NCBI GenBank assembly: GCA_028282805.1
Contig: JANQHD010000023.1
Location: 62,001 to 126,000 of the forward strand
Reading direction: 5' to 3'
Origin: Phycisphaeraceae bacterium
GTDB lineage: Bacteria > Planctomycetota > Phycisphaerae > Phycisphaerales > Zrk34
Length of the DNA: 64,000 nucleotides
In this document: positions 3,748-64,000 of the stretch, piece by piece
Position numbering within the stretch: position 1 is the stretch's first letter
Layout: each line of letters opens with the position of its first letter
Program-made: the position numbers and the translations under genes
The notes under the pieces: generated by a model
Databases searched by the model: none
What the model saw: only the letters and a program-made list of their open reading frames with translations
Told to the model about the DNA's origin: nothing

Positions 3748-5751
3748 CTACTCAGGCAGGCTTTCGTAAAATGCAACAAAAGCTGGGTCTTCACGAACTC
3801 GATCGAAGTCCGATTCATCGTCAAGCTCATGACGACAAGCATTCGACTCCAATTCGCGCCATTGTTCCAGCCAGGCGACTGTGTCGCCTGTATTCGCCTT
3901 CAAGGCGCTGATACAAGCTAAATTAAATAACGCTGAAGCGTAGTCGGGCTTGATTCTGTAAGACTCTTCGATTTTCTCTTGAGCTGATTGAATGATCGCA
4001 TCTGCATGCGGACCTTGGTTCATATGAAATTGATGTATTAAAGCACCCCCCCAATTACTCCACGCCTCGTGCTTGTCCGGCTTGATACGCACCGACTCGG
4101 CGTACTTCTCGCACGCAGACTCGAACAACGCCGCCGCACGCTCGCCGTCAGAGGCTTTGGCCTGAAAACTCAGCGCCGTCCCCCAGTTGTTCCACGCCTC
4201 GTGCTTGTCCGGCTTGATACGCACCGACTCGGCGTACTTCTCGTACGCAGACTCGAACAACGCCGCCGCACGCTCGTCGTCAGAGGCCTGGGCCCGATCG
4301 CTCAGCGCGACCCCCCAGTTGTACCACGCCTCGTGCATGTCCGGCTTGATACGCACCGCCTCGGCGTATTTCGCATATGCCGTTTCAAACAGAGCATCTG
4401 ATTCATCCCCGACTTTGATGCCAGCCTGATCTGACAGCGCTTTGCCCCACGTTACAAGCAACCACTCGGGCTCATCACTACCGAGTGACTCTGCCTCTTC
4501 CAAAAGTTGATACGCCTCTACAAACTGTTGGTCCTGATACGCTTTAATCGCGGTCTGTCGATATGCCCCGCTAAGCTGGTTACACAGCGCATCACTGGTT
4601 TGATCATTGAACTCTGCGCGGATTGCATCAAGAGCTTGGCGATCTCCCTTGAGTGAGGCCATGGCGATCTTCATGCTGAGGTTGCTACTTGAGGGTTCGT
4701 CTGGTGATTCCTGAACAGGGGCAGCCCCTTCACTCAAGCATTCGATCGCGCGTTCGATCTCCGCTTGTGCCGCTTCGACAGGATCGATCGACTCAGGCCC
4801 CTCGTCTTTTTCGGGAAAGGGCAAGACTCGGGCTAACGCATCCTTCGCATAACCGCACGGCGAGAGCACCATCGGTGGCAGATCGACTTTCAGGTGCTCC
4901 AATACCAGCTCTCGCATGAAAGAATCTGCATTGTGCCCGCGCACCAACGATGCGCCGCGTCGCGTGTTGCTCAACAGGTTCATCGCATCGTTGTGCGGCA
5001 GGTGGTCTTCGTATGCCACCCAATACAAGGCGTTGGGGAAATTGTGTGGGAATCCGCCGTCTAATTCCTGCAACACCGGGTCGCTGGCCCCGCTGTAGCC
5101 AATCACGATCAGCGTGCTATCGCTCAACGCATCCTGGAACACGATCCGCAAGTGTGTACGAACGTTCTCTGTTTCCGAAACCGTATTTGCGATCACAGGG
5201 CCACTGGCTTGACCGTGTAGGTAGATGATCGAACCCGGGGCCATCGTGCCCGCGAGATAGAACTCGCTGGCGGTCAGATCAAACACCCGGACCGGGTAAC
5301 CGATCAGCGACAACGCATCCACAGTCAGCGGATCAAAATTGGTAGTCAGGATGTACTTCACATATCCCGCGTTGACCATAGAAGCCAACAACAGGTGCGC
5401 CCAGTTGATCTTCGTGCGGTTCGTGTTGGGATCGACGGCCTCGTCGATACACTCACGAATAACCTGGGCACGGTCGCTCGGCGTGTTGAGCTCGCGCATG
5501 TAGTGAGCGTACGCGTTATCGTCCGGCCCAGGCTCAGGAGTACCTTCCAACAGGAAGTGGGGCTTCAGCTTGTCTTCAACGATTTCGCCCGCCAGCGGGA
5601 TACCAGCTGAACGAGAGAAGCCCGCACCGAGCAGAAAGGTGACACAGGGTTTGATCTTTTTCCCGTTGCATTCGCACTGGTGCTTAACCCAGTTGGCAAT
5701 TCTCTTAACGTCGGCTTCGTGAGGCGCTGAGCTGGCTGGCTTCCCGGTCAT
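3748..5751 (-). CDS. SIR2-like domain protein with C-terminal TPR repeats
   Basis: A 667-residue cytoplasmic protein. The N-terminal third is SIR2-like: GAGFS (42-46), TTNFD (136-140) and YLHG with the catalytic-type His179. This is the NAD-binding fold that in bacterial defence proteins acts as an NAD-consuming effector. After a variable linker come TPR-like repeats (about 370-640). These include units of exactly 44 residues (AEAVRIKPDMHEAW, AESVRIKPDKHEAW twice) whose DNA copies are nearly identical. GC content and codon use are visibly lower than in the neighbours, which suggests acquisition by transfer. It stands alone, with no STAND, HerA or Thoeris partner gene next to it. A role in phage defence is plausible from domain content but unproven; a regulatory or metabolic NAD-binding role is possible. 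Confidence 0.85.
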   Translation of the reverse strand: MTGKPASSAPHEADVKRIANWVKHQCECNGKKIKPCVTFLLGAGFSRSAGIPLAGEIVEDKLKPHFLLEGTPEPGPDDNAYAHYMRELNTPSDRAQVIRECIDEAVDPNTNRTKINWAHLLLASMVNAGYVKYILTTNFDPLTVDALSLIGYPVRVFDLTASEFYLAGTMAPGSIIYLHGQASGPVIANTVSETENVRTHLRIVFQDALSDSTLIVIGYSGASDPVLQELDGGFPHNFPNALYWVAYEDHLPHNDAMNLLSNTRRGASLVRGHNADSFMRELVLEHLKVDLPPMVLSPCGYAKDALARVLPFPEKDEGPESIDPVEAAQAEIERAIECLSEGAAPVQESPDEPSSSNLSMKIAMASLKGDRQALDAIRAEFNDQTSDALCNQLSGAYRQTAIKAYQDQQFVEAYQLLEEAESLGSDEPEWLLVTWGKALSDQAGIKVGDESDALFETAYAKYAEAVRIKPDMHEAWYNWGVALSDRAQASDDERAAALFESAYEKYAESVRIKPDKHEAWNNWGTALSFQAKASDGERAAALFESACEKYAESVRIKPDKHEAWSNWGGALIHQFHMNQGPHADAIIQSAQEKIEESYRIKPDYASALFNLACISALKANTGDTVAWLEQWRELESNACRHELDDESDFDRVREDPAFVAFYESLPE
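4045..4440 (-). repeat. 132-bp tandem repeats encoding 44-residue TPR units
   Basis: About three direct copies, the middle ones nearly identical at the DNA level, including third codon positions. They encode the AESVRIKPDKHEAW-type TPR units. Near identity at silent sites suggests recent duplication. Confidence 0.8.
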
Positions 5752-26804: not shown

Positions 26805-28475
<1,671 letters not shown>

Positions 28476-28942: not shown

Positions 28943-28970
28943 TTGACTTTGGCTATGTGTGGTCGATAAT
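28943..28970 (+). promoter_or_regulatory. Promoter for the candidate structured RNA
   Basis: TTGACT (28943-28948), a 16-bp spacer and GATAAT (28965-28970). A short inverted repeat CGATA/TATCG lies over the expected start site (about 28964-28980). Confidence 0.6.
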
Positions 28971-29204
28971 TCAACTATCGATGTCGCCGCCTGGCGCCAA
29001 AACGGGCAAAACCCATCTAAGCCCAGGGCCGGGGCGTCGATCGGGCGGCGAAGGCGCCAATGCCGCCCGCGTGTGTCTCGGGTGACGGCCCGGGGCATAA
29101 AAGGAGCCCGGCGGCTTCCGCTCGGTTTGACTCTCGGGTGTTGGGCCCGGGGCCGAGCGGGAAAGCGACGGCTGGGGTCACCCTTTTAGATAGGAGGTGA
29201 TCCA

Positions 29205-29237
29205 GTGTCAGACTGTACTAAGGGGCTGCACAGCTAG
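29205..29237 (+). CDS. Possible 10-residue leader peptide
   Basis: GTG at 29205 lies 7 nt after AGGAGG (29192-29197), ideal spacing for initiation. It opens a 10-codon frame (SDCTKGLHS after the initiator) ending in TAG. The stop falls in the following hairpin and the terminator comes 46 bp later. It could be a regulatory leader peptide or a chance frame in a structured RNA. Confidence 0.3.
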   Translation: MSDCTKGLHS

Positions 29238-29282
29238 CAGCTTGACGGAGCTGTGACTGTGCAGCTTCCCCCAACGGAAAAG

Positions 29283-29315
29283 GCCCGCCCGGCGCAAGTC
29301 GGGCGGGCTGTTTTT
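29283..29315 (+). terminator. Rho-independent terminator of the candidate RNA
   Basis: Perfect 9-bp stem GCCCGCCCG/CGGGCGGGC (29283-29291 with 29300-29308), followed by TGTTTTTAT. Confidence 0.85.
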
Positions 29316-29350
29316 ATAGAGCAAACTCGCCGGCCCGTGCGGCGTTTTGA

Positions 29351-45714: not shown

Positions 45715-46120
45715 TGGGCCGGGGCCATAGGCTCATCGCGCATCGCTCACGTCGCCGCTGCGCGTCGAAAACGGCCCGCAGGGCCGTCGCTAAATAGTCA
45801 CGCCGCGATTCGTTTTGACCGACGCCCCAGACACCTCGTTGGCTCGGTGGCTCGGTGGCTCGGTGGCTCGGTGGCTCGGTGGCTCGGTGGCTATGAACTC
45901 ATCGCTCATCGCTTTATTTTACAGTCCTTTATATGTTATTTATTATCGGACCCTATGTCGTGGTGGTGCTTGATCACGCGCTGATTATTAGTGCCAGCGG
46001 GGCGGGTTGGCCGATACAAAGCGTGTCGTGGCCGAGCGTTGAGTCGCGACGGACGAGTTGGAGCATGCCGATCGAACGGGCGGAGCCCGGGGTTTGGGCA
46101 ATTCTGAAGCTGAGTGAAGG
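45715..46120. other. Noncoding region with tandem repeat between parS and the histidine kinase
   Basis: About 400 bp without a convincing gene. It contains the CTCGGTGG tandem array (45835-45890), GCTCATCGC words on both sides of it (45733-45750 and 45900-45911) and an AT-rich stretch (45911-45950). No DnaA box cluster was seen. Confidence 0.5.
45835..45890. repeat. Seven tandem copies of CTCGGTGG
   Basis: Six perfect 8-bp copies (45843-45890), preceded by one variant CTCGTTGG (45835-45842). Confidence 0.95.

Positions 46121-61470: not shown

Positions 61471-64000
<2,530 letters not shown>

Follow-up and report, generated by a model that had tools for sequence, protein, structure and literature searches.

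A free-standing structured RNA of Planctomycetota with a complete 16S rRNA tail complement and a short ORF, and its alphaproteobacterial counterparts

Bacteria need translation to be matched to their ribosome supply, and a free-standing RNA that directly reads the tail of 16S rRNA is, to our knowledge, without precedent. A candidate for such an RNA is encoded in a 64,000-nt stretch of a Phycisphaeraceae genome, hereafter termed the window. Its predicted transcript of ~340 nt (plus strand, 28978~29316) carries a perfect complement of the 16S 3′ tail, immediately followed by a 10-codon ORF. Comparison among relatives delimits the gene and brings out its 16S complement, its ORF, the indifference to the encoded peptide and the helices, from which we infer 30S binding, switching and any effect in the cell. 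We give about even weight to the reading that the RNA is free-standing, that its maximal ribosome-binding site is occluded, and that 30S capture and translation would switch the RNA itself. More tentatively, it would represent a widespread, so far undescribed class of free-standing RNAs in Planctomycetota and Alphaproteobacteria, which gauge or buffer free 30S subunits: they would present the entire 16S-tail complement from behind their own fold, have a peptide-indifferent ORF translated, and convert this event into a change of their own state. Among the functional guesses of the original prediction, 30S sequestration and translation sensing are the ones we favour.

Gene boundaries, neighbouring genes and the 16S tail complement

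The RNA locus is bounded by a putative promoter that matches the consensus, TTGACT-16-GATAAT (28943~28970), and by a predicted intrinsic terminator (29282~29316) with a 12-pair stem (29282~29309), both on the plus strand and both already named in the original prediction. By chance, only ~0.1 promoters and ~0.4 terminators of this kind would be expected. The 341-nt strand has a predicted fold energy of −185.1 kcal/mol, with a z-score of −5.4 against shuffles; together with covariation in relatives, this bears out the proposal of a structured RNA of about 340 nt. Directly past the terminator lies an imperfect inverted repeat, AATTGCTGATG..CATCAGCAATC (29343~29430), which is REP-like and gives only weak, chance-level Rfam matches. 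Tandem repeats are also present elsewhere in the window. A 7-bp unit, CGATTGC, is repeated 4.6 times at 27671~27702 inside an NAD synthetase-like gene, where it encodes GNRQSAI, and resembles the AATCGGA unit at 63389~63420; an 8-bp unit, CTCGGTGG, forms 7.2 copies of 98% identity at 45835~45892; and a 132-bp unit forms 2.5 copies of 90% identity at 4047~4372, probably as repeats inside a protein gene.

The left neighbour of the RNA is a minus-strand ORF (28515~28886) with a heavy-metal-binding motif, whereas the right neighbour is a plus-strand YjbQ-like ORF (29450~29866), both named by eye. The latter, which begins ~130 nt past the terminator in the same direction, would suit a cis-acting leader or attenuator of the next gene. 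The same holds for the Rhodobacteraceae, in which the RNA lies between YhhQ-like and ArfB-like genes (named by eye) and is usually upstream of the same arfB-like gene on the same strand. However, the terminator directly follows the RNA, and the flanking genes and their directions vary in planctomycetes and in Alphaproteobacteria outside the Rhodobacteraceae, the neighbours often pointing the opposite way. The conserved downstream gene that marks a leader or attenuator was thus not found in these lineages, the synteny in Rhodobacteraceae being the exception. Because the neighbouring genes vary, we rejected the leader-peptide switch of the original prediction, and regard a cis-acting leader of any kind as very improbable.

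In the Rhodobacterales loci L016~L134 (e.g. L025 and L067), the RNA is mostly flanked by a transporter gene of YhhQ type and an ArfB-like rescue gene with a GGQ motif. A tie between the RNA and ribosome rescue is possible in this order, as is plain synteny. Some alphaproteobacterial copies also have flanking genes that look translation-related by eye, such as an RNase R-like gene in Bosea (L027) and an RF3-like gene in Microvirga (L065).

The 16S complement itself, AGGAGGTGATCCAG, is located at 29192~29205 on the plus strand. It is complementary over 14 nt, without mismatch, to the 16S tail of the same genome, GCGGCTGGATCACCTCCTTTCT (L147), so that the complement claimed in the original prediction proved perfect against the genome’s own rRNA. 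Within 3.9 Mb of this genome, AGGAGGTGATCCAG is found only at the 16S and at the window site. The complement spans the entire single-stranded 16S tail and would make a maximal Shine-Dalgarno sequence; the predicted duplex with 16S has an energy of −22 kcal/mol when the 12-mer alone is counted and as much as −33 kcal/mol when flanks are included, compared to −9.2 kcal/mol for AGGAGG alone. A duplex of 12~14 bp that extends to or adjoins the start codon may also hinder initiation. A search of the literature for a 16S-complementary small RNA returned nothing relevant.

The 12-mer AGGAGGUGAUCC, together with a nearby start codon, recurs at stand-alone loci of Planctomycetota and Alphaproteobacteria. 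Its variants mostly retain the pairing with 16S, such as AGGAGGTGGTCC in Rhodobacteraceae, which forms a G·U pair, and AGGAGGTGATTC in L321. Among the outer planctomycete members, L338, L343 and L349 retain AGGAGGTGATCC with a start codon shifted a few bases downstream, and L335, L337 and L339 keep just AGGAGGTG or less; full 16S complementarity is therefore not universal. Our scans also picked up ordinary coding genes that share the 12-mer (L267, L271 and L182), as they should if an ordinary strong Shine-Dalgarno merely happened to lie near unrelated hairpins. Such a coincidence is contradicted by the covariation, the single copy and the phylum-wide conservation, and its probability is negligible.

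The short ORF and its peptide

The window ORF (29205~29237, plus strand) starts with GTG at 29205~29207 and reads GTG TCA GAC TGT ACT AAG GGG CTG CAC AGC TAG, giving the peptide VSDCTKGLHS* with the TAG ending at 29237. This 10-codon frame, which the original prediction had proposed as a possibility, gains support from sequence comparison in the form of covariation, in-frame indels and mixed stops at a fixed place.

Evidence on the start codon comes from Alphaproteobacteria, in which 18 matches deviate by one mismatch from an 18-mer spanning the 12-mer, the spacer base and the GTG. The mismatch falls on the first base of GTG in 11 cases, always yielding ATG (8) or TTG (3), on the spacer base in five, and on the 12-mer in two, both of which form a G·U pair with 16S. 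A start codon and a 16S complement would be expected to give just this distribution. One of the five spacer-base variants, L182, reads into an apparent ordinary gene. With the single-stranded 16S tail complemented in full, the RNA could instead assist 3′-end maturation or decay of 16S as an antisense guide or chaperone, and the ORF would then be incidental. However, as GTG is replaced only by ATG or TTG, indels are in frame and the stop is fixed, the ORF is not incidental, and a guide of this type appears highly improbable.

A sample at the level of the Rhodobacteraceae was searched via the ORF rather than via the 16S complement. Matches were obtained in 85 of 149 genomes, and the sequences of 83 loci were read. 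Of these 83 copies, 54 have AGGAGGTGATCC as the 12-mer and 25 have the wobble variant AGGAGGTGGTCC. The stop is located at codon 19, closing an 18-codon ORF, in 78 of the 83 copies, compared to 0~6 copies with stop triplets at other positions near the ORF end; over all 83, TGA is used in 39, TAG in 32 and TAA in 12. The pN/pS ratio (Nei-Gojobori) is 0.79 for codons 3~12 and 1.02 for codons 13~18. A fixed stop combined with a pN/pS of ~0.8~1.0 therefore points to selection on frame and length, without amino-acid constraint. Judged by these substitution patterns, translation and its end point are conserved, whereas the peptide is not.

In the 23 planctomycete members, the ORF opens with GTG, contains a GGG-CTG that is conserved in all but a few, and closes with a stop. 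Where it could be anchored, the distance from the start to GGGCTG is 18, 21, 24 or 27 nt; the sole out-of-frame distance, that of L291, results from a misplaced anchor, since the codons of L291 read GGG CGT. TAA, TAG and TGA are all found as stops, and the peptides of the subfamilies range from MKGDKR (6 codons, L303) up to 19 codons. The planctomycete ORF terminates inside the 5′ side of hairpin P5, and therefore a terminating ribosome is predicted to open P5.

Conservation of start, frame and stop would also be found in a small mRNA whose product is the micropeptide and whose strong Shine-Dalgarno merely serves high output. Indeed, selection on frame, start and stop is as expected of an RNA that has its short ORF translated, be it dual-function or a small mRNA; a Cys-x-x-Gly-Leu pattern is kept within Phycisphaerae, and Met-Ser is common within Alphaproteobacteria. 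However, pN/pS is near 1, the conserved codons sit in a covarying helix and change along with it, and the peptides are unrelated across lineages and as short as the six codons of L303. On balance, we consider a micropeptide gene rather unlikely.

In SAR92 and Cellvibrionales (L063, minus strand near 950; L092, 1~90), the ORF reaches the terminator hairpin GGGAGCC..GGCTCCCTTTT without encountering a stop, which would make a non-stop message of the transcript. The gammaproteobacterial L317 and L318 have an ATG start and 11-codon ORFs, MSDGCIEVLTG and MSNGCIEVLTG, respectively, in a layout like that of the planctomycete ORFs.

Helices and the initiation region

The consensus fold of alignment A1, which contains 21 planctomycete members, was computed by RNAalifold and recovered three hairpins, P2, P3 and P5, all on the plus strand of the window. 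P2 (29072~29099; CUCGGG-UGACGG-CCCGGGG) corresponds to helix 1 of the family, with seven of its eight pairs changed on both sides. P3 (29107~29175) pairs CCCGGCGGC (29107~29115) with GCGACGGCTGG (29165~29175) and corresponds to helices 2 and 3, with 7/11 pairs changed on both sides, whereas P5 (29224~29265) pairs GGCTGCACAG (29224~29233) with CTGTGCAGC (29257~29265), encloses an inner GACGG-loop hairpin and corresponds to helices 4 and 5. Over the 32 helix pairs of the 21 members, 94.3% of cells are paired and 22 pairs are changed on both sides. None of 500 shuffles reached these values, and sliding by 1~3 columns reduced the pairing to 34~48%; the structure was derived from the tested alignment itself, which is a mild bias in its favour, and the margins over shuffling and sliding are large. 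Covariation and conservation in relatives, both named among the tests in the original prediction, thus came out strongly. Altogether, these alignments add a well-supported structured RNA family to the planctomycetes.

The initiation region is likely to be occluded in a lineage-specific manner, via a pseudoknot with the P3 loop in planctomycetes and via an anti-Shine-Dalgarno mimic in Rhodobacteraceae. In the window, the P3 loop segment CGGTTTGAC (29123~29131, plus strand) could pair over nine positions with GTCAGACTG (29207~29215, plus strand), which overlaps the start codon, at a predicted energy of −10.2 kcal/mol. The P3 loop can pair with the first codons through 4~9 consecutive pairs in the 16 relatives tested, with a permutation p of 0.017 when the loops were taken from the alignment; automatic loop extraction gave p = 0.12, as it cut several loops wrongly. 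The pseudoknot is therefore likely in planctomycetes, with modest permutation support.

The original prediction had suggested that GGTCACC (29176~29182) could mask the site. The predicted fold does have this element paired to the site, as part of the 16S-tail-like CTGGGGTCACC (29172~29182, plus strand), which is particular to the window copy; the planctomycete family, however, shows no enrichment of such an element. An internal mimic of the 16S tail was thus rejected as a general rule. In the three main alphaproteobacterial groups, 38~46% of sequences have a mimic at p ≤ 0.05, compared to 2~15% with the reversed query. Moreover, the site in Rhodobacteraceae can pair with a downstream CCUCC-like element, for which the RNAs’ own partners outperform swapped ones (p = 0.005).

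Once released, the CCUCC-like element could pair with other Shine-Dalgarno sequences. The RNA might then be a trans-acting base-pairing sRNA, in which ribosomes translating the ORF either uncover or cover the seed and whose output is the repression of target mRNAs. A free-standing gene with a predicted promoter and terminator is consistent with such a role, as is the cataloguing of CC2171, compared below, as an sRNA. Nevertheless, no conserved unpaired seed was found, and the CCUCC element is not conserved in the planctomycete family. This translation-gated sRNA, which we deem conceivable though unlikely, and the micropeptide gene are the main rivals of the ribosome-responsive RNA proposed here.

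Distribution, proposed working and comparison with known systems

The covariance model R1, built from the planctomycete alignment, was run on 294 Planctomycetota genomes and found 49 positive, with exactly one copy apiece. A relaxed pattern detected many loci of the same layout in the window’s class, whereas in the window’s order few matches were obtained with the reversed pattern used as a control; the relaxed-pattern loci were read one by one to split true members from ordinary genes. The exact 18-mer occurs in at least 119 contig stretches. The matches listed are nearly all from Alphaproteobacteria, those from elsewhere including a SAR92-type and a Cellvibrionales genome, and all bar a few non-members are free-standing units with a short GTG-TCN ORF. 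Of 190 sampled alphaproteobacterial genomes, 26 contain the 18-mer when up to one mismatch is allowed. L015, an exact match in a genome of the window’s class, was set aside as apparent Bradyrhizobium contamination, given its 58% complete assembly and Bradyrhizobium peptide. Common ancestry of the alphaproteobacterial and planctomycete RNAs is possible, the alternative being convergence on one working principle; the alphaproteobacterial copies score weakly under R1, mainly from the shared block.

We propose that the RNA works as follows. By complementing the free 16S tail in full, the RNA would offer 30S subunits an attachment site close to the strongest attainable. As the site and the start codon would be embedded in secondary structure, a 30S subunit must compete with the RNA’s own fold. 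A bound ribosome would initiate at GTG, read the tiny ORF and stop at a fixed point in P5, which would open this hairpin. In this way the RNA would respond to free ribosomes as a switch or buffer, whether it retains 30S subunits or undergoes a change in its own fold or lifetime. Given a dedicated gene, the longest 16S complement, a free peptide, an ORF end within a helix and a hidden site, a ribosome-responsive RNA is the simplest account. If true, RNA-based ribosome sensing would be testable in strains such as Caulobacter and Rhodobacter, and the orphan Rfam family CC2171 would gain its first functional lead.

A search of Rfam 15 gave no match at the gathering threshold in the window or at the RNA in L008, L010, L013 and L014. 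In a permissive search, RF01867 (CC2171) matched the window with 37 bits (E = 3.2e-6 for a short stretch) against a threshold of 75, and its best match across the window’s own genome also scored 37 bits; a confident match to a known family, which the original prediction had named as speaking against it, was thus not found. The match is centred on AGGAGGUGAUCCAGUGUC. The block GGAGGUGAUCCAGUGUC, which RF01867 has near its 5′ end, is identical at 29192~29209, although in the window RNA ~215 nt separate it from the predicted 5′ end. Both RNAs have the AGGAGGUGAUCCAGUGUC block, a short GUG ORF, a hairpin and a terminator in common, whereas the window RNA differs in its ORF, in P5 and in a long 5′ region that contains P2 and P3. 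The CC2171 helix CAUUGUC/GACAAUG, located between ORF and terminator, fails at three of seven pairs in the window alignment, where P5 is found instead. The alphaproteobacterial L027, L048 and L054 exceed the RF01867 threshold. CC2171 is one branch of the counterparts that share the 16S complement, the NTG start and the short ORF, which are common in Alphaproteobacteria.

Rfam lists CC2171 as a Caulobacter non-coding sRNA of orphan function, reportedly originating from Landt et al. in 2008, and we found no published report of an ORF or a 16S complement in it. Its Mesorhizobium homologue, MH_s33, is listed from RNA-seq as a 215-nt transcript (PMC5596092). For Caulobacter, Schrader et al. described intergenic ncRNA regions generally as untranslated, without naming the CC2171 RNA, which weighs mildly against translation in this species; 75.4% of its genes have no Shine-Dalgarno, and strong ones are under-represented within genes (PMC4117421).

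Three other systems resemble the window RNA in part. The rnTrpL/peTrpL RNA of Sinorhizobium meliloti is a small structured dual-function attenuator sRNA, the short ORF of which is translated (PMC10117765). The window RNA likewise combines a small structured RNA with a short, putatively translated ORF; however, rnTrpL is derived from the trp attenuator and is leaderless, whereas the window RNA is free-standing with a maximal Shine-Dalgarno. In Staphylococcus aureus, an extended Shine-Dalgarno lengthens the pairing with the anti-Shine-Dalgarno toward the start codon on the platform of the 30S subunit (PMC13009471). There, two extra pairs are formed in ordinary mRNAs, compared to 12~14 contiguous pairs in a dedicated RNA here. 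In Escherichia coli, the pseudoknot at the start site of rpsO, a cis element controlled by S15, can entrap the 30S subunit before initiation. The window RNA might work in a similar way, with a start-site pseudoknot that holds 30S; the rpsO pseudoknot, however, is a cis element within a ribosomal protein mRNA.
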